A stretch of DNA of 41,663 nucleotides from a virus. This document shows, piece after piece, positions 1,914 to 27,630 of this stretch. The position numbers were made by a program, and so were the translations under genes. The stretch lies in the IMG/VR virus record IMGVR_UViG_3300036393_000035, positions 1-41,663 of that record; one strand, given 5' to 3'. The notes below the pieces were generated by a model. The model saw only the letters and a list, made by a program, of their open reading frames with translations, made no database searches and had not been told where the DNA came from. The stretch's first letter is position 1, and each line of letters begins with the position of its first letter.

Positions 1914-2759
1914 TTAGACACGCGCCTTAGCCCGCGCGTACTCCTCATAATTCCGCGCCTGGCGCATCAGGTTTTCGGCTCGACGGCGATCATCGCCCAC
2001 GATTTCTAAAGCGCAATCGAGAATCGCACCGTTCGCCGGCCTCGTCCGCATCAGTCGAAACAACTGTCGGATCTCGTTGCTGTCGGGCTGCCGGAGTTTC
2101 TTTCGGGTGTCCGGTTTGGTGTCCGGTCCGAACGCCCGATTTCCCGCATCCGACTCTGCCGCAGACGCATTTAAAGACGTTCGAATTGAAATGCTGGATC
2201 GCTCGAGAGAATCGATCGACTCGAGGGAAACCGGCAAGTTGATCGGGTCGAACCGCCGTTCCGGGCCAATCTCGCGCCCGGATCGGAGCTCATCGAGCCA
2301 TCCCCATGTGGCGACAATTCGATGAATCGCGATTCGGATTGCGAGACAGTGATGCGCGGGGCCGCCGAGCGCGATCTCAAATCCTGCCTGTTCAGATCCG
2401 GGCGGATAGAGCATGCGCCATAGCTGCGGCGCTAACGTGAGCACGTCGTTGACGCGGATAAACCGCAGCACGAAGTCGTTACTTGCGAGACTTAGGCATT
2501 CGACCGGATCCCCCTTCGACTCGTTCCCTGGGGCGGCCAACGGCGCGCGCACTTCTCGAAGCCGCTCGGCCAGCTCGGCGCTAAGCCCCGCAACGGCCTG
2601 AAGCAATTCGGGGTCGCACAGGTCGAGCAGAGCCCCCCGAGCCGTGGAAAGCTGGGGCGGGCGGGGCGGTCGATTTGCCAAGTTACACCTTTGTAGGCAG
2701 CCATAACCAGATCCAGGCCCTAGCGACGAATCCGTTACTTGTGAAAACGGGGTTATCAA
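1914..2759 (-). CDS. Hypothetical protein coupled to integrase
   Basis: A 281-residue protein that I do not recognise. It begins with TTG at 2759, overlapping the integrase stop codon in a TTGA arrangement, so it is probably translated by re-initiation after the integrase. A second TTG about 25 codons in has a better Shine-Dalgarno (AAGG). The N-terminal half is leucine- and alanine-rich and helical; the C-terminal part (about 215-281) is charged, with a helical segment IRQLFRLMRTRPANGAILD, plausibly DNA-binding. No catalytic motif or membrane segment is seen. Position between integrase and replication genes suggests a role in element maintenance. Confidence 0.5.
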   Translation of the reverse strand: MITPFSQVTDSSLGPGSGYGCLQRCNLANRPPRPPQLSTARGALLDLCDPELLQAVAGLSAELAERLREVRAPLAAPGNESKGDPVECLSLASNDFVLRFIRVNDVLTLAPQLWRMLYPPGSEQAGFEIALGGPAHHCLAIRIAIHRIVATWGWLDELRSGREIGPERRFDPINLPVSLESIDSLERSSISIRTSLNASAAESDAGNRAFGPDTKPDTRKKLRQPDSNEIRQLFRLMRTRPANGAILDCALEIVGDDRRRAENLMRQARNYEEYARAKARV

Positions 2760-3931
2760 CCAATCTGCTTGGCAACTGCTGCCGCCAACGCATCGCTCTT
2801 TTCGGCGTAGATCTGCGTCGTGTCGGCCCGACTATGGCCCAACACCACTTGGGCCGCCTCGAGGCCGAATTCGCGGCGAATCTCGGTTGCTGCCGCATGT
2901 CGCAACTGGTTGGGGTGCCAGGGAGCGATCCCTGCTTTGGCGCAGGCGCGCTCGATCGCCTGGCGATAGCCGGGCGTGCTGTACGAATTGCCTGGGGCTC
3001 GCTTGGGCGTCCGTTTCCGACGGTCCTGCTGCGAGGGCTGAACGGGCGTCTTGCGCCGCTCCCGTAGCTCGCGGCGGCGCCTCCGCTCGCTATCAGCCGG
3101 GCTAAAACAATGTGAGTCGGCGGCGCGGAGGAGATAGGGTCGGAGAATTGCTTGAGCCTTCGGTCCGACGGCAATTCGACGGCCCGCGCCGCGATAAGCG
3201 TTCTTGTGAGTTTTTGGCGAGTAGACCCAGACCTCGTGACTGATATCCAGGTCGGCTGGGGTCAGCGAACAGAGCTCGCCAGGCCGACAACCGAGCAAGC
3301 GTTGTACCCGCACCATGTCCGCGACGATCTCAGACAGGTACGGCAGGGTAGCTTGCAGGTCGGCGTCAGACACTGGCCGCACCACGCCGGGCTCGCGGGC
3401 CGCGGTTCGGCCCTTCCGGAGCCCCTCGACGCGGAGCAGGGCTTCGTGAACGCCCGATGGGACGAGTTCTTCGACGACGCCGTGCCGGAAGGCCCGCTTG
3501 ATGATCCACACCAGGGAGTTGCAATAGGACCGCGAACAGCCCTGCTCCCTAACGAGATGGTCCTGGATGGCCCGCAGTTTCTTGGGACCGAACTCGGCGG
3601 CCGGCGTCGGCCCGTAAAGGCGACGCAGGGGCCGCAGGGCCGAACGCACGGAATGCAAGTTCTTGTAGTAGCCCTGGGCGAATTTCCAGTAGGTCGCACA
3701 CAACTCGCTCACGGTCATCGCTTCGGGGCTCGCCGCGTCCGTTGGCAGCGACCGACCGGCGGCCAACCATTCTGCCACGGCCCGATCATAAGCGGCCCGG
3801 CTTTCGGCCGAGCCATGGCGTCCGGGCAAGTAGAGGTCACGGCCGCTGAGGGTCACCACACCGCGGCCGGTGGCCCGGTGTAAGCGGTAGGTCGGAACGC
3901 GAGGAGCCGTGCGGAAAATGCGTCGTGTCAT
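2756..3931 (-). CDS. int: Tyrosine recombinase (phage-type integrase)
   Basis: A 391-residue site-specific recombinase. The ATG at 3931 has GGGAGG about 10 nt upstream. An N-terminal arm/core-binding region (about 1-170) is followed by the catalytic domain. Expected catalytic residues are R216 (LLGCRPGEL), K240 or K243 (SPKTHKN), H339 and R344 (HPNQLRHAAAT), H366 (VVLGHS) and the nucleophile Y375 (TQIYAEK). A very basic insert at about 282-316, between the lysine hairpin and the HxxR motif, is typical of integrases I associate with planctomycetes. The gene points away from a tRNA-Val whose 3' end is 126 bp upstream, the usual geometry for a tRNA-targeting integrase. All catalytic residues are present, so it should be active. 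Confidence 0.93.
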   Translation of the reverse strand: MTRRIFRTAPRVPTYRLHRATGRGVVTLSGRDLYLPGRHGSAESRAAYDRAVAEWLAAGRSLPTDAASPEAMTVSELCATYWKFAQGYYKNLHSVRSALRPLRRLYGPTPAAEFGPKKLRAIQDHLVREQGCSRSYCNSLVWIIKRAFRHGVVEELVPSGVHEALLRVEGLRKGRTAAREPGVVRPVSDADLQATLPYLSEIVADMVRVQRLLGCRPGELCSLTPADLDISHEVWVYSPKTHKNAYRGAGRRIAVGPKAQAILRPYLLRAADSHCFSPADSERRRRRELRERRKTPVQPSQQDRRKRTPKRAPGNSYSTPGYRQAIERACAKAGIAPWHPNQLRHAAATEIRREFGLEAAQVVLGHSRADTTQIYAEKSDALAAAVAKQIG

Positions 3932-3956
3932 TGAATGCAAACCTCCCAAAGCTTCA

Positions 3957-4037: not shown

Positions 4038-4057
4038 TCAGAACGCTTTACGAAAAG

Positions 4058-4131
4058 TGGGCGATACTGGACTCGAACCAGTGACCCCTACCTTGTCAAG
4101 GTAGTACTCTAACCAACTGAACTAATTGCCT
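4058..4131 (-). tRNA. tRNA-Val (GAC), acceptor stem damaged; likely attachment site
   Basis: Read on the minus strand, the sequence folds as a tRNA. It has an AGTTGGTTAG-type D loop, an anticodon arm CTACC-TTGACAA-GGTAG giving anticodon GAC, and a T arm ACTGG-TTCGAGT-CCAGT. The discriminator is A and no CCA is encoded. The 3' acceptor half is ATCGCCC, but the 5' half reads AGGCAAT instead of the expected GGGCGAT, leaving two mismatches (1:72 and 5:68). The D stem is also weak. The 3' end faces the integrase, as expected for an att site in the tRNA 3' half. It may be functional, a decayed copy, or an element-borne copy. Confidence 0.75.
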
Positions 4132-4282: not shown

Positions 4283-4756
4283 ATGGCACAGTTTTTTGTG
4301 AAGCTCGGCGGGAAGGTTTTTGGCCCCGCGAGCTCGGCCGACTTGCGGGCGATGGCGGCCGACGGCCGCGTGCAAAGAGACACGCTCATTAGCGCGAGCG
4401 CGGCCGGCCCATGGCGGACCGCGGAAAGAGTCCGAGGCCTGTTTCCCGAGACGGCCTCGATCGCCGAGCTACCGGTCGCAGCGACTCCCGCACCGGTGGC
4501 GGTTCACGTTGTCGCTCAGGCGCCCATGGTGCAAACGATTCAAGCGACCGGCAAAGTTTGGAAGGCCGTGATCCTGATGGGCACCCTGCTCACGATCGCC
4601 TCGGCCGTCGTCTTCGGCCTTTCCTTCGCCCTCATTGAGCCAGGCTCCGCTTCCGGTGCGACGGGAGCCGTGGCCGGACTAGCGTGCCTAGGCACCTTCG
4701 TTGGCCTATTCACGTTCATCCTCGGCCGGATTGGCGCGTGGTGGTTCCACGGCTAG
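4283..4756 (+). CDS. GYF_2-domain membrane protein
   Basis: A 157-residue protein from the ATG at 4283, preceded by GGGAGG at 4271-4276. Residues about 2-52 match the GYF_2 pattern: a start FFVKLGGKVFGP, then ADLRAMAADGRV and a tryptophan followed by an RVRGLF end. This small domain binds proline-rich or peptide ligands and in planctomycetes is often fused to membrane segments. After a proline/alanine linker (about 60-85) come two hydrophobic segments at about 92-115 and 125-150, so the domain is probably cytoplasmic on a two-helix anchor. It is convergent with the next minus-strand gene, the two stop codons overlapping at 4753-4756. It could be a host gene or a moron between the tRNA and the tail module. 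Confidence 0.75.
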   Translation: MAQFFVKLGGKVFGPASSADLRAMAADGRVQRDTLISASAAGPWRTAERVRGLFPETASIAELPVAATPAPVAVHVVAQAPMVQTIQATGKVWKAVILMGTLLTIASAVVFGLSFALIEPGSASGATGAVAGLACLGTFVGLFTFILGRIGAWWFHG

Positions 4757-4962
4757 ACGGCGATCTCGTCGTAGAGCTGTTCGCTCGGTTGGGCCCGCAC
4801 GTCGTCGAGCAGGGCCAGGCCGCGGCCGATCGACGCGTGATGCTTGATCGCTAGCAGCTCGTCGCGCGGGTCTTTGGGCTCGCGCAGGCGGGTCGACCGC
4901 CGTTTGAGCAGCTCGTCGGTCAGGCCCTCGATCAGCTCGAAAAGTTGGGCAGCGCGGTGCAT
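4753..4962 (-). CDS. Small hypothetical protein
   Basis: A 69-residue charged helical protein from the ATG at 4962, with GGGAGA about 6 nt upstream. It opens MHRAAQLFELIEGLTDELLK, rich in leucine heptads. I do not recognise a family and see no cysteine motif or membrane segment. It is the last leftward gene before the plus-strand GYF gene and is separated from the tail operon by a plus-strand cassette, so it needs its own promoter or readthrough. A shorter or non-coding interpretation is possible, but the ribosome-binding site and codon pattern favour a real gene. Confidence 0.5.
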   Translation of the reverse strand: MHRAAQLFELIEGLTDELLKRRSTRLREPKDPRDELLAIKHHASIGRGLALLDDVRAQPSEQLYDEIAV

Positions 4963-5138
4963 CGGCTGTCTCCCGGCAGGGCTGTACACTACTCCGTTCA
5001 GTATAGGAGGGCCGCGAGCCGAAACGGTTCGTCCTGGGGCCGGCCGGGTACCATTCGGGGTGCCGCGATCCCTGCTGCCGCGGCGTGCGTCATTGCAGAC
5101 GCACGCCGCGGCGATCGCTCCCTGGAGGCCCTCGCCCA

Positions 5139-5228
5139 ATGCTGAGCTGGTTCGATGGATTTGTGATCGTGGTGGTGGCGCTGCTCGGCGTCGTCGCCGT
5201 AGCCGTGTGGGCCGAGAAACGGCGATGA
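5139..5228 (+). CDS. 29-residue single-span membrane peptide
   Basis: An ATG at 5139, with TGGAGG at 5123-5128, opens a 29-codon frame. It encodes a short amphipathic start (MLSWFDGF), one long hydrophobic run rich in Val, Ala and Leu (about 9-24) and a basic end (EKRR). Its TGA overlaps the ATG of the Tat-signal protein (ATGA at 5225-5228), which supports translation and coupling. The shape, one membrane span with a positively charged tail, fits a small membrane adaptor, an antiholin-like peptide or a leader peptide for the downstream exported protein. No family is recognised. Confidence 0.55.
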   Translation: MLSWFDGFVIVVVALLGVVAVAVWAEKRR

Positions 5229-5485
5229 AGCGTCGCACGTTCTTCAAGGCGATCGCGGGGGCGTTTGCCGGCGCAGCCGTCGGCAAGCTGCCGGCGTTGC
5301 CGTCGCCGGCGACAACGGTTCCCGCGGCCGGCCTCATGACACGCAACCACCTACGATCGCTGCAGATTCGCAAGTCGATCTGCCTGGTGAAGGTGCCCGA
5401 GGAGCTGCTCGGCGACACCGTGTGCGACCTGAAAAGCTTCGTCGCCGTGCAGATGAGCACGCAGTTTGACCGAGGGTTTCTATGA
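5225..5485 (+). CDS. Small Tat-signal exported protein
   Basis: An 86-residue protein whose N-terminus is a classic twin-arginine signal: MKRRTFFKAIAG, then an alanine/glycine-rich hydrophobic stretch to about 28, then a proline-rich spacer. The mature part is only about 50 residues and has a cysteine at residues 53 and 67. The start codon overlaps the stop of the 29-residue peptide, and its stop overlaps the next ATG, so three plus-strand genes form a coupled mini-operon. Function unknown. A folded, Tat-exported small protein in a prophage suggests a moron acting at the cell envelope. Confidence 0.6.
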   Translation: MKRRTFFKAIAGAFAGAAVGKLPALPSPATTVPAAGLMTRNHLRSLQIRKSICLVKVPEELLGDTVCDLKSFVAVQMSTQFDRGFL

Positions 5486-5853
5486 GCCACAGCGAAAGCG
5501 AAGCTGCGCGGCGGGCGATCGAAGAGTTTTTGGCGGGCGTCGGGCCGGCGGCCGAAGTGTTCCGCGCACGGCTGGCAAACTCTGGGCAGTGGCTGGACCG
5601 GGCCAATGCGCTCTGCGACGTGACGATCTCGATCCGCCCTCGCAAGCCGAACGCGCCCGGCTACACGCTGAGCTTCACCACGATCGATCTCACCTGCCAG
5701 GTGAGCGAACCGCCCAGGATCGACATGCCGGAGCCCACGTCGCGTGGCCTGATGTTGCCCGAGCCGCCGCGGTCGATCGACTTGCACTGCGAGTTTCTCA
5801 CGCCGACGGCTCGGTGCGTGGTTGCTCCGAACGATACGGCCACCAGCGATTAG
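5482..5853 (+). CDS. Hypothetical protein, last gene of plus-strand cassette
   Basis: A 123-residue protein starting in an ATGA overlap with the Tat-signal gene. The N-terminal half (about 1-40) is helical and charged. The middle (about 45-75) has alternating beta-like hydrophobics (DVTISIRP, then GYTLSFTTIDLTC). The C-terminal third is proline-rich, with two further cysteines. No family recognised. Its 3' end overlaps the convergent minus-strand tail-operon gene by 56 bp, so the two transcripts are antisense over that stretch. Coupling to the two preceding genes implies a shared envelope-related role. Confidence 0.55.
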   Translation: MSHSESEAARRAIEEFLAGVGPAAEVFRARLANSGQWLDRANALCDVTISIRPRKPNAPGYTLSFTTIDLTCQVSEPPRIDMPEPTSRGLMLPEPPRSIDLHCEFLTPTARCVVAPNDTATSD

Positions 5854-6061
5854 CCGTCGCCTGTCGCTGCTGGCAGCCGGGGCATTTCCAGCGGACGCCG
5901 ACCGCACGGAGCGCTTTGGCGATCGTGTCGCCGAGGCCGCGGCTCCCCTGCTTCGCTTCGCACTGGGTGACCGGCCGGCCAGGTCGTTTGCGGATACGGC
6001 CGCAGGCACGGCACTCTGCACTCCCATCGGCGCGCTCTCGCCACTCGCAAGACAGGCTCAT
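5798..6061 (-). CDS. Small CxxC zinc-ribbon-like phage protein
   Basis: An 87-residue protein with cysteine pairs CRAC (about 17-20) and CPGC (about 60-63). Between them is GLGDTIAKALRAVGV (about 42-56), then a basic aromatic end with NRWWPYR. This layout (GLGD, then a KALRAVG-like helix, CxxC, RQ and an N-R-W/L-P-aromatic) recurs in small phage proteins encoded just after tail genes. No enzymatic role is known to me. Its ATG overlaps the stop of the preceding tail gene (TGATG), so it is the terminal cistron of the late operon. Structural zinc binding is inference. Confidence 0.6.
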   Translation of the reverse strand: MSLSCEWRERADGSAECRACGRIRKRPGRPVTQCEAKQGSRGLGDTIAKALRAVGVRWKCPGCQQRQATANRWWPYRSEQPRTEPSA

Positions 6062-7017
6062 CAGGCAAAGCCCTTCACCGTCATGGTGAGCGTGTCGAAG
6101 CCCGCCCCGTTGTCGTAAAACATGAACACCTCGTCCTCGTCGAGGGTGCAGTCGTAGCGATCGTTGTTGTTCGAGTAGGGGTAGTCATTCAGAAACGGCG
6201 TGTTCGGACCGCCCCAAAAGTTCCCCGAAGTAGTGAAAGTGATCGACCAACGCGGATTGCTCAGTGATGCGGCCGAGCCCGTGCCATCGAAAGAAAGGCT
6301 CATGCTCGTGACATCGCAGATCGCCGGGTCGAGATCGATCCGCCACGTGCAGCTGGCGTAGGGAGTGAGCTCGTATAGGCCGATCAGGTCGGCACCGCAC
6401 GGATTGGGGTTCACCGGGAAGGGCGAGTAGGTGTGGATGTCGAGCTCGATCGTGGAGTAGGTGCGCCGCTGCGAGACCACGCACCAATCGAGCTCGCACT
6501 CGTTGCCGCTGTCGGCGCCGGTCGCGTGGAAGCGGATGCGGACCTTGCCCAGGCTGGTGTAGTGGGCGGTGCTCAGGCCTAGGCTGCGCGTGGCAAAGAG
6601 AGCCCCAACATCGAAGTCAGTCGAACTGTCGGAGAGTTGGTCCCAGCTCGAGCTGCCCCAGTTCCACGCGTAGATGTCGATCGAGCTGCTGCCGGTGCCC
6701 GTGACGCGCCCGTTGCATTGCACCTCGCCGACCTGCGGGAACGCGCCCAAGTCGTACTCGATGTAGAAGTCGATCGTGCCGCCACTCTCTTCGACGCGGT
6801 AGTAGCCAGAGAACCCACGATGCAGGTTTCCGACCGTGCCGCCAGCGTGCGTGCCGGTGGTGATCGTGATCGACGTGGCCGGCTTGTAGCCACACATGCA
6901 GGCCGGCTGTGGTTCGGGCGGGGTAGTGCCACCGCAGCAACGGCAGCCTGGCGAGAAGCGGCCGCGACGGTGGCGACGATACGAACGCGGCAACCAGAGG
7001 TTCGGGCGGAAGATCAC
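6061..7017 (-). CDS. Putative distal tail/receptor-binding protein
   Basis: A 318-residue protein starting with GTG at 7017, four bases after the upstream stop. A basic N-terminus (about 1-25) is followed by a short cysteine cluster (CRCCGG, then CMCG at about 26-43). A long region rich in Ser, Thr, Gly, Tyr and Trp with beta-strand spacing then runs to the end, with paired cysteines. The composition fits a beta-sandwich adhesion module or lectin-like head. Position at the end of the tail genes and lack of enzyme motifs suggest a tail-tip or fibre component. No named family recognised; carbohydrate binding is a guess. Confidence 0.5.
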   Translation of the reverse strand: MIFRPNLWLPRSYRRHRRGRFSPGCRCCGGTTPPEPQPACMCGYKPATSITITTGTHAGGTVGNLHRGFSGYYRVEESGGTIDFYIEYDLGAFPQVGEVQCNGRVTGTGSSSIDIYAWNWGSSSWDQLSDSSTDFDVGALFATRSLGLSTAHYTSLGKVRIRFHATGADSGNECELDWCVVSQRRTYSTIELDIHTYSPFPVNPNPCGADLIGLYELTPYASCTWRIDLDPAICDVTSMSLSFDGTGSAASLSNPRWSITFTTSGNFWGGPNTPFLNDYPYSNNNDRYDCTLDEDEVFMFYDNGAGFDTLTMTVKGFA

Positions 7018-7021
7018 GCGG

Positions 7022-7390
7022 CTATTCCTCCGACGGACCGCAAGCGGCCGAAGTAACCTGCCAATAGCCGTTGATCCGCTGGCAGATGACGTAGCTGCCG
7101 CCCGTGATTTCGCCGGCGGCGTTCTCCATCATGCGGCCGCTGTAGACGGTGACCGGCTCCCCGTCTTCCTCTTCGCCGGGGGCCCCGATCTGGATCTTGC
7201 CCGTCGCGCTATCGCCCGGCGTGCTGGTGAGCGTTTGCCCCGAGTCGAGCTTGACGAGGATGGCGCGGGCGGCGCTTGGGTCATAGCGAATGGCCGGCCG
7301 CGCATCGCCGCTCTTCGGGCGGCCGCGCCACCAGGCGATCAGCTCGCGGAGAATGCGGATGCTGGCGGCGTCGAGGGTGAAGCCTGACAT
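7022..7390 (-). CDS. Small tail-associated hypothetical protein
   Basis: A 122-residue protein with an N-terminal helix holding a tryptophan pair (LRELIAWWRGRP, about 14-25). A beta-rich domain follows (AILVKLDSGQTL, then GEPVTVYSG and GSYVICQRINGYWQV). The second half resembles a small OB- or SH3-like barrel. It sits between the distal tail protein and the 282-residue tail protein with 3-4 bp spacings, so it is co-translated with them and probably part of the baseplate or tip. No family recognised. Confidence 0.5.
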   Translation of the reverse strand: MSGFTLDAASIRILRELIAWWRGRPKSGDARPAIRYDPSAARAILVKLDSGQTLTSTPGDSATGKIQIGAPGEEEDGEPVTVYSGRMMENAAGEITGGSYVICQRINGYWQVTSAACGPSEE

Positions 7391-8248: not shown

Positions 8249-9661
8249 TTAGGCGATGCTCGCCACCTCCGTGGTCGCGCTCATGTTGGTGTCGATCTTC
8301 CGCAGCAGGTCGGTTTGCCGCTTGGCTTCGTTGAGGATCGCCTTGGTGTTCTTGGCGGTCTCTTCGCCCGGCTTCGTGAGGCTGCGGTTGATCGTGGAAA
8401 AGGCCTCGGCCGAGCCGCGGGTTGCGGCGCCGGTGGTGTTGAGATCCTTGGGCTTGGCCTTCTTGGCTTTCTCCTCTTGCTCTTTGAGCTTCTCGAACGT
8501 GTCGTCGAACGCGCCGAATTGCTGGGCGCTTTCGGCCACGGCGATCGCCGCCTCGTCGGACCGCTTCCGCAGATCCTCGAAAAACGCTTTGATCTTTTCG
8601 CCGTTGCTGGGCGCAGTAAGCGCTTTGTTGAGGTCGTCCTGCAGGCCGGCGACCGAGTTTTCGAGCTCGGCGTTGAAGGCGAACAGGAAGGTCTCTTCGG
8701 GGTTGATGTCCGAGCCGATGCCGGTGAGCTCGGTGACCGCGTTGGAAAAGTCGAGCAGCTTTTGCGTCAGGCCCTGGATGCCCTGAGTCACGGCGATCTG
8801 CGCCCGCTTGAAGATCAGCGGGATCGTGCCGATCACGTCCGCAAAGAACGCGGCCCCGCCGGCGATCATTTCAAACGCTTTGCCGACGATGTCGCCCATG
8901 TTGCGGCCGCTGGTGGCCGTGCCCACGAAGCGATTGGCGAGCTCGGCGATGAACGGGCCCAGCTGAATGGCGATCTGGTTGGCGATCCCCTTGAAGACTT
9001 TGCCCATCCGCTCGAGCGCATCGTTGGCCGCTTCGACCTTGGCCGCTTCGACGCGGTCGAAGCTGATGCCCAGCAGGTCGGCGTCGGCCGCCATTTCACT
9101 GATTCCCTCGCGGCCCATCGTGAGCACGTTGAGCAGCGATTGGCCGCTCTTGCCGAACACGCTCATGGCCGCGGCCGCGCGCTCGGTGGGGTTCTCGATG
9201 TTCTTGATCGCGTCGGCGATCTGCAGGAACGACTCTTGGGCGCCGGCGTTGGCGAGCTCTTTGCCGTCGAGGCCCAGCCGGGCGAGCGCATCGGTCGCAC
9301 CGCTCTCCCCCATAGCCGCGGCGCCGATCGTTTTGTTCATCTTCTCGAGCGATCCGACGAAGGCCTCGCTCTCGACGCCGCCGAGGCTGGCCGCGTGGAA
9401 GAATTGCGACAGGGCCTTCGTGCCGATGCCCAACCGATCCGAGAGCTCGCCCGTCTTGTCGACCGCTTCCATGGCGCCGCCCACGAAGCTAGTGAATGCC
9501 GACGCGCTCAGCCCCACGCCGGCGATCGCCGCCAGACCGGCGACCGGCGACGTCACCGCCTTGGCAAAGCCGGCCAGCTCGCCGCGGGCCTGCTTCAGGC
9601 CTTTGACGAGCGGGCCGGTGACGACGGCCAGGTTGATGTTGAGACTGCCGACGACAGACAT
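8249..9661 (-). CDS. Tail tape measure protein
   Basis: A 470-residue protein from the ATG at 9661. The early hydrophobic/amphipathic region contains VTSPVAGLAAIAGVGLSASA (about 37-56), followed by GELSDRLGIGTKALSQF, a pattern common to tape measures. Middle hydrophobic helices lie near 255-290. The C-terminal part (about 350-470) is charged and coiled-coil-like. Tape measures set tail length and help deliver DNA; at about 0.15 nm per residue this predicts a short tail of roughly 70 nm. Position directly after the G/GT chaperones is diagnostic. No lysozyme or peptidase domain is visible. Confidence 0.85.
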   Translation of the reverse strand: MSVVGSLNINLAVVTGPLVKGLKQARGELAGFAKAVTSPVAGLAAIAGVGLSASAFTSFVGGAMEAVDKTGELSDRLGIGTKALSQFFHAASLGGVESEAFVGSLEKMNKTIGAAAMGESGATDALARLGLDGKELANAGAQESFLQIADAIKNIENPTERAAAAMSVFGKSGQSLLNVLTMGREGISEMAADADLLGISFDRVEAAKVEAANDALERMGKVFKGIANQIAIQLGPFIAELANRFVGTATSGRNMGDIVGKAFEMIAGGAAFFADVIGTIPLIFKRAQIAVTQGIQGLTQKLLDFSNAVTELTGIGSDINPEETFLFAFNAELENSVAGLQDDLNKALTAPSNGEKIKAFFEDLRKRSDEAAIAVAESAQQFGAFDDTFEKLKEQEEKAKKAKPKDLNTTGAATRGSAEAFSTINRSLTKPGEETAKNTKAILNEAKRQTDLLRKIDTNMSATTEVASIA

Positions 9662-9665
9662 GGCT

Positions 9666-10453
9666 TCACAGTTTCGGCTCGAGGTGGGCGGGCAAGGTGC
9701 TTCCCAAGTGGTAGCCCTCCGCATCGAGCAGCTCGCGCCGCTCCGTGCGGTCGACCGGACGACGCGGGCCCTGAGCCGCGGCGATCGCCAAGTCGAAGGC
9801 GGTCCAGATTTCTTGGGGCGTTGCTTCGCGCGGGGCGATCGGCAAGAAGTCGTCCGGCTCGAAGGGCTTGGCGCCCTTGCGACGGTTGACGTTGGCGATC
9901 GTGGCGGCGATCAGCGCGAGTTGGCGGCGGTCGTCTCCGTAGGGCTCAAGCTGGAAGAACGCTTGCCAGTAGGTGAACTCTTGCGAGTTGACTACGGCGC
10001 GGCATTCGGCGACGGATTTGCCGAGGTGTCCTGCGAGCCGGAACCAGTCCCGGAGCTCGGCTCGCTGTCGGAGTTTTTTTCCGCTTCCTCCTCGGCGTCG
10101 TCGCCCAGGCCGCTGAGTCGGAGCGCCGCCTTGTAGGCTCGATCGAGCAATTGCGCGGGCAGCTTCTCGAGCGACTTGGCTTCGTCCAGGCTGGCGAACA
10201 GCGACTTGCCGTCGTCGTCGACCAGGCAGTGCGAGAGCAGCTTGACCCGGAACGAACGGACGCTGCCGATCGCGTTGACAATCGAGCTCGAGCCGTCGGG
10301 CGCCAGGAACTGTCGCTCCCATTGCTCGCGCTCGATCCCGGTCAGGGTGCGCACGACGACGTACGTTCCCTCGCCGAGCTCGGGCGTGTCGACGCGCTCG
10401 CGCGGGAGGGGCAGATCCGGCATCAACAACTGACTGGCGGTCAGGGCTTTCAT
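9666..10453 (-). CDS. Tail assembly chaperone GT fusion made by -1 frameshift
   Basis: The upstream chaperone frame begins at 10453 and, after a -1 shift at 10073-10079, continues in the T frame to the stop at 9666-9668. This gives a product of about 262 residues. The junction reads GCG GAA AAA AAC in the zero frame; slipping back one base yields KKLRQRAELRDWFRLAG in the T frame. The T part has an aromatic helical motif (SQEFTYWQAFFQLEPYGDD), as in gpT-like or HK97 gp14-like proteins. The T frame has no convincing start of its own, which supports frameshift expression. GT holds the tape measure for tube polymerisation. Confidence 0.8.
9992..10453 (-). CDS. Tail assembly chaperone G
   Basis: A 153-residue protein located between the tail tube and tape measure genes, the invariant position for the G chaperone of long-tailed phages. 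The N-terminal domain (about 1-115) has YVVVRTLTGIEREQWERQF and a helical LDEAKSLEKLPAQLLDRAY segment. The C-terminal tail is acidic and Ser/Gly/Asp-rich and would be replaced in the frameshifted product. G stays soluble with the tape measure, while GT adds a tube-binding T domain. The slippery A-AAA-AAC lies about 125 codons in. It is not part of the virion in known systems. Confidence 0.8.
   Translation of the reverse strand: MKALTASQLLMPDLPLPRERVDTPELGEGTYVVVRTLTGIEREQWERQFLAPDGSSSIVNAIGSVRSFRVKLLSHCLVDDDGKSLFASLDEAKSLEKLPAQLLDRAYKAALRLSGLGDDAEEEAEKNSDSEPSSGTGSGSQDTSANPSPNAAP
10073..10079 (-). other. Programmed -1 frameshift slippery site A-AAA-AAC
   Basis: On the minus strand the zero-frame codons GAA AAA AAC contain the heptamer A AAA AAC, one of the most efficient known -1 slippery sequences. 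One further A precedes it. The -1 frame from here is open to 9666 and encodes a T-like domain. Location at the end of the G frame, between tube and tape measure genes, is the conserved place for this recoding event in tailed phages. I did not find an obvious downstream pseudoknot by eye. Confidence 0.85.
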
Positions 10454-10490
10454 GGTTTCCTCGGAAGGTGGTGGGCGGGCGAAGCGAGCG

Positions 10491-10910
10491 TTAGCTCGAG
10501 GCGGGCGGCGTCATGGTGCCGGTAACCTGCAGGGTCAACGTGCCCTTCAGGCCCTCGGCGGTTTGAGCGGCGTGGCCGACGCCTTTCACATAGGCGGCGA
10601 AGGCGTGCGTGGTCCCGGTCGAGCCGTCGGGATAAATCACTTTCCAGTTGCTCAGCGTCTGCGACTTGAGCAACTCGAAGAGTTTGCGGTGGGTGTTTTC
10701 GAGCGGCGTATAGAGCAGCTCCGACGTGACGTCGCCCACCTGCCACACGGTGGGCAGGAAGGTGCGGGCGTTGTCGGCGCTCTGCAGGTGCGTGGAGTCG
10801 AAGAACTCGCCCTCGGGGTTGGGCCCGTCGACGCCGACGATGAAAGCGATGTCCGTAAACACCGAGCTGATCTCCAGCTGCAGCTTGGTTCCCTGGGAAC
10901 TCCGGGGCAT
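10491..10910 (-). CDS. Major tail tube protein
   Basis: A 139-residue protein from the ATG at 10910, preceded by GGGAAAGG. It has the beta-rich tube pattern: GTKLQLEISSVFTDIAFIVG at the start, then FDSTHLQSADNARTF, a central LFELLKSQTLSNWKVIYPDG and a GTLTLQVTG end. Length and order (after the tail terminator, before the G chaperone) match lambda gpV/HK97 tube proteins, which stack as hexamers to form the tail lumen. A longer in-frame start upstream would read through a structured palindromic leader and is unlikely. The untranslated leader may raise expression of this abundant protein. Confidence 0.75.
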   Translation of the reverse strand: MPRSSQGTKLQLEISSVFTDIAFIVGVDGPNPEGEFFDSTHLQSADNARTFLPTVWQVGDVTSELLYTPLENTHRKLFELLKSQTLSNWKVIYPDGSTGTTHAFAAYVKGVGHAAQTAEGLKGTLTLQVTGTMTPPASS

Positions 10911-10922
10911 GGTGGGCCTTTC

Positions 10923-10994
10923 CCGTGTGCCGGGAAGGGCGGTAGGTTCGGCCGACGGCCGCGGGGTGGCCACCCCAACGGCCTCGGCACACGG
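10923..10994. repeat. Nested palindrome in leader of tail tube gene
   Basis: An outer perfect inverted repeat, CCGTGTGCCG / CGGCACACGG at 10923-10932 and 10985-10994, encloses a perfect 14-bp palindrome GGGGTGGCCACCCC at 10963-10976. The whole sits between the stop of the tail terminator fusion gene and the tail tube start. As RNA it could form a large stem-loop just ahead of the Shine-Dalgarno, acting as terminator, stabiliser or translation control. Alternatively its 72-bp length with terminal inverted repeats could mark a miniature mobile element. Confidence 0.55.
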
Positions 10995-11022: not shown

Positions 11023-13020
11023 TCAGCTCCCGAGTTGCCACCAGGCGCGGCGGACAGCGGTGGAAAAATCACAGTGCAGGTACCAGCCGCCGGCGAACGG
11101 CGTGCGGATGTGCTTGACACACTGCACCAGCCCGCTCGCGCCGTAGTTGCTCAGGTCGACGAAGTGATCGAGGAGCTTTTCGGGCGGACCGATCGCATAG
11201 CCGTATTGATTGGCCCACGTGCGCCACAGCGGGCCGATGTAGCTCCGCGAGTCGGCCGAGCCATGCACGAAGGCGACGCGGCAGCAATCGCCGCTGTTGC
11301 GCAGGCTGTGCAGGATGCCGGCGTCGAGATCGCGGCCGCTCTGCGTGAAGCAGAGCTGCGCGCCGGCGCCGACGGTGTAGCCGCTCTGGGGCGCTCCGGG
11401 CAGCGTAAGCGTGAGTTTGGTCGGGTCGCTTTCGTGCGGCGCTACGGCGTAGTCGCCGGTGAGGCTCGGGTGGAAGCCGAGCGCGCCCACGCGCCAGACG
11501 CTGGTGTCGGCCAAGTAGTGCGGCGAAGCAAGCGTGATGTCGATCGAGTTGGCGGCGGGCGTCACCGCATTGATCTGCACCAGGCGGTTCATGCCGTCGG
11601 TGGCGGTGTTGCGGGCGAGCGTGGCGAAGTAGCGGCGGCCGCCGCCGATCCACGGCTTGGCCAGCCAGTGTTTGATGTTCCGCTGAAAGTTGGTCCAGTC
11701 GGCGGTGCGGATCGTGTGCTCCGGCGCGAGCCCTTCGTTGTGGATGCCGGCCACGTCGGCACTAGCGAGCAGGTCGAGGTCGGCGCGGAGATCGGTGCGG
11801 TAGTGGGTCGTGATGTTGATGAAGAGAGCGAGCGCGACGTTGAACTCGGCGCGCAGCTTGTCGAGCGCACTCTTCGCGAGCAGGCACAGCCCCGACCAGT
11901 CGAGCGCGGGGATGATGTCGCGGGCGGCGTAGTTGTCGCTATAGACCGCCGTCAACTGCGGATGCTTCGCTTTGATCCGCGCGAGCATGCGGGCGTACTC
12001 GCGGCCGTGCACCTCTCGGCAGGCGGCGATCGACCAGTCGATGGGCTTTTCGTCGACGTAGAGATCGTTCGGCGAGTTGTGCGGCGGGTTGAACCAGCTC
12101 GGGTCGTAGTCGCTGGTGATCAGCGCCCGGCAGTGCGGCCAAGTCCCCTCGGCGGCGAAGGTGTTGAGCGTGCCGGCGCGGAGGAGGCTCGTGTACCAGT
12201 AGATCATCGCCTGCGGCTTGAGCTCGCGCACGCGGTTGATCGTGCCCTGGTGAGCCGACACGCCCTCCGGCAAGCCGTTCAGCCAGTCGGTGACCATCAG
12301 CGGCGTGGGGTACAGGCCGTTGAATTTGGCGGGGAACCAGCAGCCGAAGACGTCGGCGTACCAGTGTTCCTTGGCCACTGCATAGGTGCGGCGTCGAGTG
12401 TTGCCCGTGTCCCAGGTGCCCGTGTCGCCGAACTGCTCGACCATCTCGGCCGAGGCGGTCATCGCCGGGTAGGCCGGCAACTCGCCGGGCGGCGGCGGAT
12501 CGACCGGATCGGTCGGGTCCGTGGGGTCCGTCGGATCGGTGGGGTCGGTGGGGTCGGTGGGATCGACTGGCGGCCCGGCGGGGTTGGTTGGCGTCGGCGT
12601 TCGCAGGGCCACGCTTTGCGAGTGGTAGACGTCGAAGGTCATCCGCTTGCTATGCAGCGGGAACTCTTCGCCGGTGTTCGGGTCGTAAGGGAAATCCTGC
12701 GTGTTGACGTGCATGCAGTGCTGCAGCTCGCAACCGTCGACCGTGCCCCGGAAGCCGTCGATCGCGTTGCGGACCGCTTCCTCGAGCTGCCAGGCCTCGG
12801 TGTAGTCGTCACTAAGGCAATCGATGACGGGGCGGGCCTGGCCGCAGTTGGTCGGCCCGCTGAGGCATTGCACCGTCTGACGCGAAGGCAGGCGCATCAG
12901 GATCGTGGGATAGGTCGGATCGCCTTCCAACTCCGTGACGACGCGCGGGCCCACGATCGCGGCGACGGCGGGGTCGCGCTCGAGCAAACGCAGCAGCACT
13001 TGGAAATACTGGATGGCCAT
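11023..13020 (-). CDS. Tail terminator domain fused to large TIM-barrel-like enzyme domain
   Basis: A 665-residue protein whose ATG at 13020 overlaps the stop of the gp10-like gene (TAATG). Residues about 1-138 have the size, position and pattern of a tail terminator/DUF3168 protein (MAIQYFQVLLRLLERDPAVA; then TVQCLSGPTNCGQ; a helical EEAVRNAIDGF; ending RMTFDVYHSQ). A linker of about 40 residues holds six tandem PTD units between prolines. Residues about 183-665 are a separate domain with aromatic strands (MIYWYTSLL, RALITSDYDPSWF, LTAVYSDNYAARD, VAGIHNEG) that look like a TIM-barrel glycoside-hydrolase-like fold, then a beta-rich C-terminus. The terminator caps the tube at the neck, so the fused domain would project there. 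The barrel call is from strand pattern only. Confidence 0.6.
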   Translation of the reverse strand: MAIQYFQVLLRLLERDPAVAAIVGPRVVTELEGDPTYPTILMRLPSRQTVQCLSGPTNCGQARPVIDCLSDDYTEAWQLEEAVRNAIDGFRGTVDGCELQHCMHVNTQDFPYDPNTGEEFPLHSKRMTFDVYHSQSVALRTPTPTNPAGPPVDPTDPTDPTDPTDPTDPTDPVDPPPPGELPAYPAMTASAEMVEQFGDTGTWDTGNTRRRTYAVAKEHWYADVFGCWFPAKFNGLYPTPLMVTDWLNGLPEGVSAHQGTINRVRELKPQAMIYWYTSLLRAGTLNTFAAEGTWPHCRALITSDYDPSWFNPPHNSPNDLYVDEKPIDWSIAACREVHGREYARMLARIKAKHPQLTAVYSDNYAARDIIPALDWSGLCLLAKSALDKLRAEFNVALALFINITTHYRTDLRADLDLLASADVAGIHNEGLAPEHTIRTADWTNFQRNIKHWLAKPWIGGGRRYFATLARNTATDGMNRLVQINAVTPAANSIDITLASPHYLADTSVWRVGALGFHPSLTGDYAVAPHESDPTKLTLTLPGAPQSGYTVGAGAQLCFTQSGRDLDAGILHSLRNSGDCCRVAFVHGSADSRSYIGPLWRTWANQYGYAIGPPEKLLDHFVDLSNYGASGLVQCVKHIRTPFAGGWYLHCDFSTAVRRAWWQLGS
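12499..12567 (-). repeat. 9-bp tandem repeat encoding a PTD linker
   Basis: Tandem 9-bp units (on the plus strand variants of GGATCGGTC / GGGTCGGTG) encode repeated Pro-Thr-Asp triplets on the minus strand, at about residues 152-173 of the tail terminator fusion. The codons vary at third positions, so this is not a fresh slippage product over its full length. Such repeats can change length by slippage and so could vary the distance between the two domains. Confidence 0.75.
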
Positions 13021-13475
13021 TAGGAACCGCGGGCGATCGCGTCGATTTCGGACGCCAACTCTTTCGCGAGAGTCTCCGCGGCCGCTTGCTCTTTCGCTTC
13101 GAAGGCCGCGCGGATGTATCCCCGCGGCGTGATGCTCTTGCTGCCGAGCTCGATCCAACGGCCATAAAAGCCGTCGTCCTCGCCACTGAACTCTTTGGCG
13201 TCGGCCGCGGTGGTGACCTTCACGCCGAACCGGCTGCGACTTCGCTTCATGGCACGCACGCGATGACTGCGGCGCAGAGCTCCGGGCACAGGGCGGCCCG
13301 TCTTCGGATTCGCCGGCCCTTCGTAGACCGGAGCGCGTGAGCGGACTTCCGGCAAAAAGGTTTTTGCCGCCGCACGCTGGGCGCGGCGAATACCTTTCTT
13401 TGCCAGCTTGGGCTCGAAGGCGAGCAGCTTTTTGCTGAGCTGCTCGAGCCCTTGGACGTCGTACATGCGCGTCAC
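13020..13475 (-). CDS. HK97 gp10-like head-tail/tail completion protein
   Basis: A 151-residue basic protein, choosing the GTG at 13475 that overlaps the upstream stop (GTGA) and has GGAG 8 nt upstream; an ATG at 13466 is the alternative. It matches the HK97-gp10 pattern: GLEQLSKKLLAFEPKLAKKG and a helical RAAAKTFLPEVRSRAPV at the start, a basic middle, FYGRWIELGSKSITPRGYI, then a long C-terminal helix. The 'GxxxExG...RPfl'-like region (about 110-130) is the family signature. It lies between head closure and tail terminator genes, the usual place, and acts at the neck of the virion. Confidence 0.8.
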   Translation of the reverse strand: MTRMYDVQGLEQLSKKLLAFEPKLAKKGIRRAQRAAAKTFLPEVRSRAPVYEGPANPKTGRPVPGALRRSHRVRAMKRSRSRFGVKVTTAADAKEFSGEDDGFYGRWIELGSKSITPRGYIRAAFEAKEQAAAETLAKELASEIDAIARGS

Positions 13476-13816
13476 GAGCTGGGCTCCGACTCCGAGGCGA
13501 GTAGCTCGAGCGACACGCAACGCTGGCCCGGATTGACGACCGAAGTCAGGTACAGCTTCTGCTCGCCGTTGACCACGCGCATCTTCGGGGTCACGCCGGG
13601 AATCCAGTGGCTGATGATGCGATGGCTGGCCTCGGAGCCCGCGGCCCCGGCCTGCCACTGCTCGCGGCCGCCGAGCGGCTGGATGCTCACGTAGAGCTCC
13701 GCGAACAGCGACCATTGCGGCTTGAGACTGCCGTCGTCAGCCTTGCGGAGATCGCGGTGCTCGAGCCGCACCGGCGTGTCGAGCTCGCCGGCGGGTGGAC
13801 TTTGATACTTGCTCAC
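13472..13816 (-). CDS. Head closure / head-tail joining protein
   Basis: A 114-residue protein starting with GTG at 13816, four bases after the connector gene stop. The pattern (an early LDTPVRLEHRDLR, then WSLFAELYVSIQPLGGREQW, a SHRIISHWIPGVTPKMRVV segment, then LYLTSVVNPGQRCVSLELLA) fits the phage head-tail joining family (SPP1 gp16/HK97 gp7-like). These small beta-barrel proteins plug the portal-connector channel after packaging and provide the tail docking face. Gene order, capsid to connector to this protein to gp10, supports the call. Confidence 0.78.
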   Translation of the reverse strand: MSKYQSPPAGELDTPVRLEHRDLRKADDGSLKPQWSLFAELYVSIQPLGGREQWQAGAAGSEASHRIISHWIPGVTPKMRVVNGEQKLYLTSVVNPGQRCVSLELLASESEPSS

Positions 13817-13820
13817 GCGC

Positions 13821-14402
13821 TCACCAGTCGGTTGCTCGATCGCCCAGCAAACTCCGCACGGCCGGCGGCAGCATCGGCGCGTCGCCGGCGGCGGCTAGCG
13901 CCCGGGCTTCGCGGTTGCGGTAGTAGTCGCTGGCGAGCAGCAGCACGGCCTGCTTGTAGCGCTTGGGCAGCGCGGCGGGCTCGGGCCAGCCGGCGACCCA
14001 GGTCACGATCACGGCCTTCCGCGAGCAGCTCGTCGTCGGCCAGCTCTTTCCGCTCAGCAGGCAGACGGCCATGTTGCCGGCCACGTGGGCCAGCTCGTAC
14101 AGCGCCGCGTCGAGCTCCTGCTCGTTGCCGTCGGCATCGCGGTAGCGGACCGAGGTCAACGAAAGGAACGGCGGCCGCGGCAGCCGGACGTAGCCGCAGA
14201 GCGGAAAGCCGCTCAGCTCGAGCTGCCACGTGGCCGGCAGGAACTGCCGCCACGTGTACTCCTCACAGTCCTCGCGGGCTGTGGCAATTTGCTGCTCGAG
14301 CTCGGCGACTTCGCTCTCCCGCGGCGGCAGCCGGAGCTGCTTTTGCAGCTCTTCGACCGACACGGGTTCGACGTCCGGCCCGCTGACGCGCTGCCTGTGC
14401 AT
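13821..14402 (-). CDS. Head-tail connector (gp6/gp8-like adaptor)
   Basis: A 193-residue mostly helical protein. It begins with 'PVSVEELQKQLRLP' (about 13-26), followed by a long helix with IATAREDCEEYTWRQFLP, a strand pair (WQLELSGFP, then RLPRPPFLSLTSVRYRD) and a second helix KRYKQAVLLLASDYYRNREA. This is the usual layout of phage head-tail connector/phiE125 gp8-type proteins, which form a 12-mer ring under the portal. The position, after two small capsid-linked proteins and before head closure, agrees. Confidence 0.78.
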   Translation of the reverse strand: MHRQRVSGPDVEPVSVEELQKQLRLPPRESEVAELEQQIATAREDCEEYTWRQFLPATWQLELSGFPLCGYVRLPRPPFLSLTSVRYRDADGNEQELDAALYELAHVAGNMAVCLLSGKSWPTTSCSRKAVIVTWVAGWPEPAALPKRYKQAVLLLASDYYRNREARALAAAGDAPMLPPAVRSLLGDRATDW

Positions 14403-14417: not shown

Positions 14418-14843
14418 CTAGACCTTCTGAGCCGTCTGCGGCACGGTCCGCGGGTTGCCGTGCAGCCACACGCCGGCGAGGAAGATGTTGCCCGAGTTGG
14501 CCGCCGGCGTGATCGTCACCCGCACATAGGGCTTGGTGCCGATGTAGCCGATCTTGAACACCTTGTCGTCGTCGGAGAACAACAGGGTGGCGCCGTTCTC
14601 GGTGCCGAGCAGATCCTCGTCGGCCACGGCCATCGCGCCCGACATGTTGGCCGCGTCGCTCTCTTCGACCAGCACGGTGAACGTGACGTCGGCGTCGGCG
14701 ATCGAGCCGGCCAGCCCGAGGAACTCGAGCGAGTCGCCGTTCGCCACGCTGGCAATCTGCGAAACGAAGGCCGTGTTGTCGGTCACGGCCGCCGCGGGGC
14801 TGATGCCGCGCTTCGGCACGATGTTGTTATGGAGATCGCGCAT
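14418..14843 (-). CDS. Capsid-associated protein, possible head decoration
   Basis: A 141-residue protein, beta-rich, with many Ala, Asp, Gly and Thr residues (DSLEFLGLAGSIADADVTF, GATLLFSDDDKVFKIGYIG, YVRVTITPAANSGNIFLAG). The pattern is similar to small phage proteins often placed between the capsid and connector genes and thought to decorate or stabilise the head. No exact family recognised. It is separated by 40 bp from the upstream small gene and 15 bp from the connector gene. Virion incorporation is an inference from location and composition. Confidence 0.5.
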   Translation of the reverse strand: MRDLHNNIVPKRGISPAAAVTDNTAFVSQIASVANGDSLEFLGLAGSIADADVTFTVLVEESDAANMSGAMAVADEDLLGTENGATLLFSDDDKVFKIGYIGTKPYVRVTITPAANSGNIFLAGVWLHGNPRTVPQTAQKV

Positions 14844-15171: not shown

Positions 15172-16620
15172 CTAGACCTGCAGCATGTGCTTGACGGGGC
15201 GAGTGCCCGCGTCGAGCAGTTGGCCGTCGTGGCGGCCGAATGCGATGAAGCCGATCTGGTCGGTGTCGGCGAAGCGCTCCTCGAGCCGCTTGACCCGCAC
15301 TTCGCCCACGTCGCGGATCTTGTACTTACTCAGTTGGCCGAAGAGCATCGTTTTGGTGCCGGTGGCGATCGAGCTCTGCATGTTGCTGTTGAGCACGTAC
15401 GGGTGACCAAACAGCGTGCTGGGCACGCCGGCCTGAGCCCCCGGCTGCCAGATGTACTGGTTGTCGTTGCTCTTCAGCTTGCGGATGGCCAGCAGGATGT
15501 TCCGGTGGAACATGAAGCTCGCGCCGTCCCAATAGGCGTCGTCGACCGAGTGGATCAGGTCGAGGATCTCGTCGGCCGTGATCGCGGTCGCACCGGCCGT
15601 GGTCTTGCCCATGGCGCTCGCGGGCACGATGCCCATCGGCTCGACACCGCCGCCCACGCCGAGCGTGAACTTGCGGTTGGTCACGCGGCCGAGCCGCTCG
15701 CCCATGATGCGGCCGAGCGTGGTGTTGAGGTCGAGCCGCGTATCCTGGAACAACTCGAAGGGAACTTTGATCAGCTTCGAGCTGTACTTGAAGGCCCCCC
15801 AGCGCTGCTGACCGAACGTCGGGTCGAGCGGGGTCGGGGCTTTGTTCTCGCCGATCTGCTCACCTTCGTTGCTCGTGTCGTCGCAGGTCGGCCAGCTCAT
15901 CTCCTCGCCGCTCTCGGTGCGGATGACTTCCGCCACCTGCCGCATGCCGCCGAATTGCAGCTGCGCCATCTCGAGCGACTCGACGAACGTCGAGCCGAAC
16001 GTGTAACCGCCGAGCGGGCCGGATTGGGCCGACAGCGCGCGATTGTGGCGGCGCTCGTGATACTCGGCCTGCAGGCCGGAGTAGTCGTCGCGGCTGAGCT
16101 CGAAGTTGATCGTGCGGGCGCCGAGTGCCATGCCGGCCGAGCGAGCGGCCCGCATTTCCCGTTCGCTGGGCGCGACGCCGGCGGCGTTGCGGAACCAGGC
16201 CGAGAGGGCCAGGTTGCTCGCGCGGGGGTTGCGCTCCGCACGCTCGTCACGCGTACGCGGGCGTTCGCCCCGCATGGTCCGCTCGTACCAGTCTTCGACC
16301 GTGCGCCGCCGCTCGCTGCGAGTCTTGGGCTTGCCGCTGCGACGCTCCTCTTTCGAACGATTCTTGCGACGTTCGCCGTTACGATCTTCGGGCTCGCCGC
16401 CGCCGAGCAATCGGGCTTCGAGGTCGATCGCCCGCTTCTCGCGGTTGACCGCATCGTCCTTCGCGTCGAACCGCGCGTTGACGGTGTCCCACTGGCCCTT
16501 CTCTTCGGCCGTCATGTCCCGCTTCTCGTCGCTCACCTTGTCGGCGAGCTGGCGCAGCTCCTTGTAGGCGGCGGCCCTCTCCTCCATCAACACCTTGAGC
16601 GAATCGCGGCTAACTGGCAC
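15172..16620 (-). CDS. Major capsid protein, HK97 fold
   Basis: A 482-residue HK97 gp5-like protein. I choose the GTG at 16620, with GAGGA about 7 nt upstream; a longer ATG start at 16722 lacks support. Residues about 1-150 are charged and helical, a built-in scaffolding (delta) domain with a very basic Arg-rich stretch at about 85-130, removed by the protease encoded upstream. The mature region has GPLGGYTFGSTFVESL, GEEMSWPTCDDTSNEGEQIG, then LIKVPFELFQDTRLDL with RIMGERLGRVTNRKFTLG, and a P-domain end QIGFIAFGRHDGQLLD: all typical of the capsid family. Hundreds of copies form the icosahedral shell. Confidence 0.92.
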   Translation of the reverse strand: MPVSRDSLKVLMEERAAAYKELRQLADKVSDEKRDMTAEEKGQWDTVNARFDAKDDAVNREKRAIDLEARLLGGGEPEDRNGERRKNRSKEERRSGKPKTRSERRRTVEDWYERTMRGERPRTRDERAERNPRASNLALSAWFRNAAGVAPSEREMRAARSAGMALGARTINFELSRDDYSGLQAEYHERRHNRALSAQSGPLGGYTFGSTFVESLEMAQLQFGGMRQVAEVIRTESGEEMSWPTCDDTSNEGEQIGENKAPTPLDPTFGQQRWGAFKYSSKLIKVPFELFQDTRLDLNTTLGRIMGERLGRVTNRKFTLGVGGGVEPMGIVPASAMGKTTAGATAITADEILDLIHSVDDAYWDGASFMFHRNILLAIRKLKSNDNQYIWQPGAQAGVPSTLFGHPYVLNSNMQSSIATGTKTMLFGQLSKYKIRDVGEVRVKRLEERFADTDQIGFIAFGRHDGQLLDAGTRPVKHMLQV

Positions 16621-16930
16621 GGGTGAGTCCTCGGCGGGAATGCGTGCCGGCGGAGGCCCAGCAAAAGAGGGACGGCAAGCGCCGGCACCGGATGTTTGGT
16701 TCGGTGCGCTCAAGCGCTCCACCGCCGACTGGGCAGCGATCGAGATGCTTGCAACCCTACACGGCGGGGGCGACTGGGCGCCGGCGCGGCATGCAGGGCA
16801 ACAGGTTTTCCAGCAATAGGGGGCCGCAGGCGGAGGGACTTACGTGCCCTAAGCAGTTGCAAGGGGCAATGCCGACTCCGCTCTGCAGCCGAGTTTTCGA
16901 TCCTACACTGAGGTGGCCCCAGGATCGGGG
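16621..16930. other. Gap between prohead protease and capsid genes
   Basis: About 310 bp separate the protease stop from the capsid GTG, far more than elsewhere in the packed late operon. Apart from the capsid ribosome-binding site (GAGGA) near 16628-16632, I see no gene with a convincing start and no clear sigma70 promoter. A partly palindromic GGGACTTACGTGCCC lies near 16840. A leftward frame continuous with the capsid gene exists but has atypical codon composition. The gap may hold a capsid-specific promoter or processing site, as expected for the most abundant protein. Confidence 0.4.
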
Positions 16931-27359: not shown

Positions 27360-27365
27360 TTTCTT

Positions 27366-27399
27366 TACCGCAGAGGACGCGGAGGGCGCAGAGAAGAGA
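27366..27399 (+). repeat. Interspersed ACCGCAGAG-type repeat, copy 1
   Basis: ACCGCAGAGGACGCGGAGGG-type copy followed by CGCAGAGAAG, lying just upstream of the start of the membrane-anchored beta-helix gene. It belongs to a family of short repeats built from GNGACGCNGAGG-like 9-mers; other copies are listed below. Confidence 0.8.
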
Positions 27400-27465
27400 A
27401 GAGGCAGGCGAGGCGAGCTAGGCGGGCGTATCGAATCGCGTATAAAACGCGTTCGTTTTGACAGT

Positions 27466-27630
27466 TCAGCGAGCGAAGTGACCGTTGACACACAAGATGT
27501 AGCCCATCCACACGGCGCACAGCGCGCAGATGGCGGCTCCCGCGAAGTCGCGGGCGATCAGCTGTGTCAGCGTGGCGTGCGCCACCCAACCGAGCACGAA
27601 CATTGAGAACCAGACAGGCGGTTGACTCAT
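27466..27630 (-). CDS. Small two-span membrane protein
   Basis: A 54-residue protein starting in an ATGA overlap with the coiled-coil protein gene. It has two hydrophobic segments, about 7-24 (FSMFVLGWVAHATLTQLI) and 30-48 (GAAICALCAVWMGYILCV), joined by a short charged turn. The size and topology fit a class II holin or a small membrane adaptor. The upstream neighbour also has a membrane segment, so the two may form a holin/antiholin-like pair. Assignment is by topology only. Confidence 0.5.
   Translation of the reverse strand: MSQPPVWFSMFVLGWVAHATLTQLIARDFAGAAICALCAVWMGYILCVNGHFAR

Follow-up and report, generated by a model that had tools for sequence, protein, structure and literature searches.

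A tail-terminator gene fused through a Pro-Thr-Asp linker to a large C-terminal domain in an uncultured virus of bacteria

Introduction

The locus described here raises two questions: whether a tail terminator, usually a minimal and conserved part of the head-tail joint, is indeed encoded in one piece with a large additional domain, and what such a protein would do in the virion. In other phages, terminators form a ring of six subunits that sits on the head-proximal end of the tail tube and docks to the stopper (PMC11784142, PMC7296036). The gene in question comes from an uncultured virus of bacteria whose IMG/VR record is a single linear sequence of 41,663 bases; we analysed the whole of this stretch, which we refer to below as the window. 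The gene runs on the minus strand from an ATG start at 13020 to one stop at 11023, and its single ORF encodes 665 aa in three parts: a tail-terminator domain (residues 1-138), a linker (residues 139-183), and a C-terminal domain of 482 residues and 53.5 kDa (residues 184-665).

Results

One coding frame runs through the terminator domain, the linker, and the C-terminal domain

Third-position GC lies between 0.85 and 0.96 in all 80-codon blocks from end to end of the fusion gene. Codon usage, compared with that of the phage's own capsid, portal, terminase, and tape-measure genes, agrees with it only in the fusion frame, where the N-terminal part scores +0.42 and the C-terminal part +0.51, the remaining five frames reaching at most about +0.05. 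A frame error or an antisense shadow is therefore excluded; one coding frame runs through all three parts, and the fusion is real. Shadow ORFs are expected in GC-rich genes, and we read as such a 765-aa ORF on the opposite strand of the same DNA. Start codons inside the frame near residues 181-254 (among them in-frame ATG codons at residues 187 and 193) have no well-spaced ribosome-binding site, and there is no gene-boundary signal within the fusion. The sequence-only reading had described a gene that continues through six Pro-Thr-Asp repeats into a domain of ~480 residues, and the single ORF, its codon signal, and the 482 residues counted here bear this out.

The linker reads LRTPTPTNPAGPPVDPTDPTDPTDPTDPTDPTDPVDPPPPGELPA, with six PTD units and a composition of 38% Pro, 20% Thr, and 18% Asp; a matching tandem array is present in the DNA at 12505-12565. 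In an AlphaFold2 (AF2) model it has no secondary structure and a pLDDT of about 60-75. Matches of residues 148-217 to PhiKZ gp35 and PHROG 25388 are centred on this low-complexity segment, and we do not take them for homology.

The fusion gene occupies the terminator position in a conventional neck and tail cassette

The neck and tail genes are all on the minus strand and in standard order (TerS, TerL, portal, protease, capsid, adaptor, stopper, HK97-gp10-like gene, fusion gene, tail tube, chaperone, tape measure), with no sheath gene found among them (Table 1).

Table 1. Coordinates of the fusion gene parts and of neighbouring virion genes in the window.
Feature	Position	Strand	Basis
Major capsid protein	15172..16722	-	PF05065, E=5e-54
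Gene of unassigned function between capsid and adaptor	14418-14843	-	PHROG 5707
Head-tail adaptor	13821..14402	-	PHROG 442, E=2.8e-27; PF05135
Head completion / stopper protein	13472..13816	-	PF05521, E=1.9e-14
HK97-gp10-like tail-component gene, directly upstream of fusion gene	13020..13475	-	PF04883, E=1.2e-5
Tail-terminator domain, residues 1-138	12607..13020	-	PF11367, AF2 model, PDB match
Pro-Thr-Asp linker, residues 139-183	12472..12606	-	Composition, tandem DNA repeat, model disorder
C-terminal domain, fold unassigned, residues 184-665 plus stop	11023..12471	-	Coding frame continuous with N-terminal part
Major tail (tube) protein, immediately downstream of fusion gene	10491..10973	-	Relatives, codon-position GC
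Tail assembly chaperone	9992..10453	-	Relatives at same position
Tape measure protein	8249..9724	-	PHROG 9483, E=3.5e-57

At the upstream boundary, the stop codon of the HK97-gp10-like gene overlaps the ATG of the fusion gene in a TAATG junction, an overlap that suggests translational coupling of the two genes. On the downstream side, the tail tube protein is 36% and 30% identical to the products of the genes next after the terminator in loci L194 and L010, respectively; the ORF at 10450-10992 was rejected as its gene because it is in the wrong frame, codon-position GC fitting 10491-10973. The chaperone frame continues into 9666-10322 (PF06223) via a probable -1 frameshift. Within the chaperone pair (9666-10453, minus strand), position 10079 carries a zero-frame slippery sequence, the heptamer A AAA AAC, as would fit the G/GT-type -1 frameshift of lambda-like tails. 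Past the tape measure lie three tail-tip genes (4753-6027, 6061-7017, and 7022-7390, minus strand), for which we found no family match and no relative among the fetched loci. The gene between capsid and adaptor has three relatives only among those loci, the best of them 68% identical (L131).

The best relatives of the capsid protein in bacterial genomes are on planctomycete, Phycisphaerales, Pirellulales, and Kiritimatiellae contigs, and portal (47% identity to L009), terminase (TerL, 41% to L010), and tape measure lead to these loci as well. Going by the closest relatives of capsid, portal, and terminase, a bacterium of the Planctomycetota or of a related group is the probable host. Elsewhere in the window, a tyrosine integrase gene (2756-3949, minus strand) stands beside a tRNA-Val(gac) gene (4057-4131, minus strand), and a second tRNA gene (Met) is at 41211-41284; an integrase beside a tRNA gene is the typical attachment arrangement of temperate phages. 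A 739-aa protein (25272-27491, minus strand) shows a weak pectate-lyase-like match and an E1_FCCH domain (E=6e-9) besides a hydrophobic stretch at its N-terminus. It is probably a fibre or spike protein, though its gene is unusually placed, upstream of the terminase genes and not behind the tape measure. A 552-aa protein (31327-32985, minus strand) combines a trypsin-like protease domain (PF13365, E=2e-17) with a following collagen-like repeat stretch.

Residues 1-138 belong to the tail terminator family

Residues 8-110 match the SPP1 terminator family PF11367 (Tail completion protein gp17) with E=1e-9 and 39 bits, above the curated cut-off of 24.5 bits. The closest relative in the phage collection is a stand-alone protein of 127 aa from the Methanoculleus viruses Blf4/L4768, itself a PF11367 member and 35% identical. 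An AF2 model of residues 1-182, built on an alignment of 61 sequences (60 relatives), has a mean pLDDT of 85.7, with values >90 over most of about residues 1-110 (to 134). Among PDB entries this model matches the RcGTA tail terminator (6tba_4A, E=1.6e-6, TM 0.72 by target length), together with entries for T5 p142, Mu, Bxb1, and lambda gpU, the T5, Mu, and lambda gpU matches with probability 1.00; in BFVD, it matches many proteins annotated as tail completion protein or tail terminator. In the cassette, too, the gene has the place of a terminator, preceded by the HK97-gp10-like gene and followed by the tail tube gene. Family profile, fold, and genomic position agree in assigning residues 1-138 to the tail terminator family, as the sequence-only reading had proposed for the first ~138 residues; one of the checks set by that reading, a structure search with the N-terminal part, came out in its favour.

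The C-terminal domain matches no described family

The same reading had seen an enzyme-like domain in the C-terminal part, and here profile searches of Pfam, NCBIfam, and PHROGs and a sequence search of the PDB matched no family or entry. By tblastn, no relative of the domain was found among phage and plasmid records, and none was found on the contigs of 27 relatives. No homologue was found in 392 planctomycete genomes and 464 genomes of three more phyla; tblastn matches in four genomes (E 0.001-0.8) fall within unrelated genes and were set aside as chance. Peptide-pattern scans of viral and bacterial contigs likewise gave no match, such scans reaching close relatives only, and near-identical records may be missing from the comparison, so that the lack of matches does not prove that relatives do not exist. 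An AF2 model from the single sequence has a pLDDT of 34.7 and carries no confidence. We regard the domain as a candidate new fold or new carbohydrate-active family.

In composition, the domain contains 3.7% Trp and 11.4% aromatic residues, vs 1.8% and 7.3% in the core virion proteins; fibre-like proteins of the same phage reach an aromatic content of 10%, so that high aromatics are not specific to this domain. Many glycan-binding proteins are tryptophan-rich as well, a weak pointer to such a role. Cysteine makes up 1.9% of its residues.

In a narrower form of the display reading discussed below, the domain would be specifically a TIM-barrel glycoside hydrolase, as the TIM-barrel-like strand pattern named in the sequence-only reading suggests, and the neck would bear a ring of six enzymes; this is possible, if doubtful. 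By eye, its sequence alternates between hydrophobic strands and helices, with D, N, or E at strand ends (VYSDN, FINIT, GIHNEG), a strand pattern that we take to recall GH114-like barrels. However, no glycoside hydrolase family was matched in Pfam at E<=10 or in NCBIfam or PHROG, no catalytic motif was established, and the unconfident single-sequence model speaks neither for nor against a (beta/alpha)8 fold. When the domain was compared with a profile built from 24 planctomycete GH114 (PF03537) proteins, its score of 21.2 barely differed from that of the best of 100 shuffled controls (21.1), and another protein of the window scored above it; we rejected the GH114 assignment. A GHL15 lead was dropped for want of a usable family set. 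An E1_FCCH-like insertion at residues ~480-555, also an idea formed by eye, was rejected as well: with a profile built from the fibre protein and the tail tube proteins of relatives, the best relevant domain score was -1.2 bits, while shuffles reach 8.1.

The C-terminal part might instead act away from the neck, whether in lysis, as a secreted enzyme, or otherwise, if the protein were cut in the linker or the C-terminal part were also made alone. The internal ATG codons at residues 187 and 193 would allow the latter, and the former would draw on the fact that exposed linkers of the Pro/Thr/Asp kind are open to proteolysis. We judge this improbable: neither ATG is preceded by a well-spaced ribosome-binding site, the residues that follow do not, as read directly from the sequence, resemble a hydrophobic signal, and the profile searches matched no lysis-enzyme family.

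Large C-terminal extensions are rare among surveyed terminators

The survey of terminators covered related phage loci and about 790 bacterial genomes, one terminator family and roughly 235 matches in all, among which no intact terminator with a large C-terminal domain was found. In the capsid-linked loci, searched with a terminator profile seeded with the window's own domain, there were 96 domain matches, all of which end <=59 residues past the core, split partial matches aside; the 86 full-length relatives measure 107-153 aa and stop after the core domain. The window's gene, with about 525 residues past the terminator domain, is alone in this sample. PF11367 itself has 33 matches in 392 Planctomycetota genomes and about 115 in 398 Pseudomonadota genomes. 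Long open frames are common around these terminators, and in every case checked it is the region upstream of the domain that is open: 38 of the 40 long frames checked by position (nearly all in Pseudomonadota) end <=14 residues past the match. Two apparent second fusions were rejected, L222, whose 184 residues past the match look degenerate (by eye, out-of-frame-like residues), and L243, a weak partial match under the family cut-off. At six planctomycete PF11367 loci (L174, L176, L198-L200, and L203, in genomes G068, G124, and G170), the open frame is exactly 339 codons with the terminator C-terminal, which reflects either long upstream openness or an N-terminal fusion.

Because the survey took in one family and a selection of genomes, and because its profile for the capsid-linked loci started from the window's own domain, it speaks for rarity and not for uniqueness. 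Extended terminators may exist elsewhere, because two BFVD proteins, A0A8S5QQ35 (385 aa, 'Bacterial repeat domain-containing protein', Siphoviridae sp. ct6oU4) and A0A3G1L3M2 (399 aa), match the terminator model. The fusion itself has been observed in one contig so far.

A single metagenomic contig whose two domains meet at a tandem repeat could be an assembly chimera, or a private in-frame accident perhaps joined at the linker repeat and of no selected function, and the lack of another large C-terminal extension among the surveyed matches would agree with such an origin. We nevertheless consider it very unlikely. Codon usage and third-position GC match those of the phage's genes on both sides of the join and through it, and the next gene in tail order is at its expected place, whereas two pieces joined by chance would as a rule be out of frame or out of order; codon signal and gene order thus speak against an assembly join.

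Discussion

A possible display of the C-terminal domain at the neck

Taking the real fusion and the terminator assignment as given, we lean, by a modest preference, towards a virion tail terminator that displays a tethered C-terminal domain at the neck, where the domain most likely binds or cleaves a host surface glycan. Residues 1-138 would close off the tail tube and dock onto the stopper ring in the manner of the SPP1, lambda, T5, and RcGTA terminators, and would likewise assemble as a hexameric ring out of which the disordered linker of 45 residues would lead. Since the known terminators form hexameric rings, it is reasonable to expect that each virion would then carry six tethered domains of ~53 kDa as a collar round the neck. 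By its Trp-rich composition and by analogy with glycan modules known at phage necks, the C-terminal domain probably binds or cleaves glycan, most likely of the host surface or capsule, and the tethered domains may help in early, reversible capture of the host. In T5, a His-tag on the terminator C-terminus led to aberrant fibres, and the tag may fold into the lumen (PMC11784142); for this reason, the route by which the linker would exit the ring is uncertain.

The domain might alternatively be structural, bracing the neck or head-tail joint and doing the job of a decoration protein within one polypeptide, with no role in host binding. In phage 812, separate terminator decoration proteins span the stopper-terminator junction, and the terminator itself has an outer beta-sandwich domain (PMC12886913); the 1.9% cysteine would in addition permit cross-links like those of the Milano collar (PMC10491603). 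A disordered Pro/Thr/Asp linker is, however, ill suited to rigid support, and the C-terminal domain is far larger than the known decorations, so that we hold bracing to be unlikely. Display at the neck remains the reading that we prefer, and it has a bolder form, which we put forward tentatively: a siphovirus of a planctomycete-like host whose terminator ring mounts six tethered enzymes of a new glycan-active fold would bear a catalytic neck collar.

Comparison with known systems

Through residues 1-138, the protein shares profile, fold, and gene position with the PF11367 terminators and with SPP1 gp17, lambda gpU, T5 p142, and RcGTA g8. It departs from the PF11367 terminators in length, as the relatives that we found end after the core, at 107-153 aa, whereas the window protein has 665 aa. 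Additional domains that bind the sheath have been described on terminators of contractile tails (PMC11784142; phage 812, PMC12886913), and phage 812 gp99 and PVC16 resemble the window protein in joining a terminator core and an additional domain in one polypeptide (PMC11784142, PMC12886913). In those contractile systems, however, the extra part binds sheath, whereas the window's domain is larger and sits on a long disordered linker. The BFVD proteins A0A8S5QQ35 and A0A3G1L3M2 likewise have a terminator core and extra sequence, a likeness that is drawn by length, name, and fold match alone.

For the proposed function, the nearest counterpart is the neck passage structure (NPS) of lactococcal phages, a separate collar protein that bears glycan-binding or glycan-hydrolase-like domains at the neck and in one case binds host cells (PMC6669499). 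The NPS of TP901-1 and the 936 group carry such domains at the neck (PMC6669499), where the window's domain would be displayed as well. The carrier differs: an NPS is encoded separately, is built on a BppU-like ring domain, and in many cases includes a coiled coil, whereas the window's carrier would be the tail terminator itself; the BppU-like N-terminal ring domain is not present in the window protein, whose N-terminal domain is the terminator. TpeX of 936 phages and the Ig-like domains of lambda and T5 offer a further parallel, namely a structural tail protein with an extra surface domain (PMC6669499), but tail tube extensions occur in many copies along the tube, and the window's domain would be present in six at the neck.

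The sequence-only reading had called the arrangement unfamiliar among described siphoviruses. That stands insofar as we found no siphovirus terminator itself carrying a tethered domain this large described in the open-licence literature, but it needs qualifying in view of the partial precedents just named, lactococcal NPS and terminators with additional domains. Extra terminator domains and neck glycan modules are already known separately, and the novelty is the combination of a terminator with a large tethered domain. A terminator with a tethered 53-kDa domain implies that this ring can be used for display, the ring itself setting both the copy number and the position of what it carries. If the domain does bind or cleave host glycan, neck-borne host contact, so far found mainly in lactococcal phages and on a dedicated collar protein, would extend to a new carrier, and probably to phages of little-studied bacteria.
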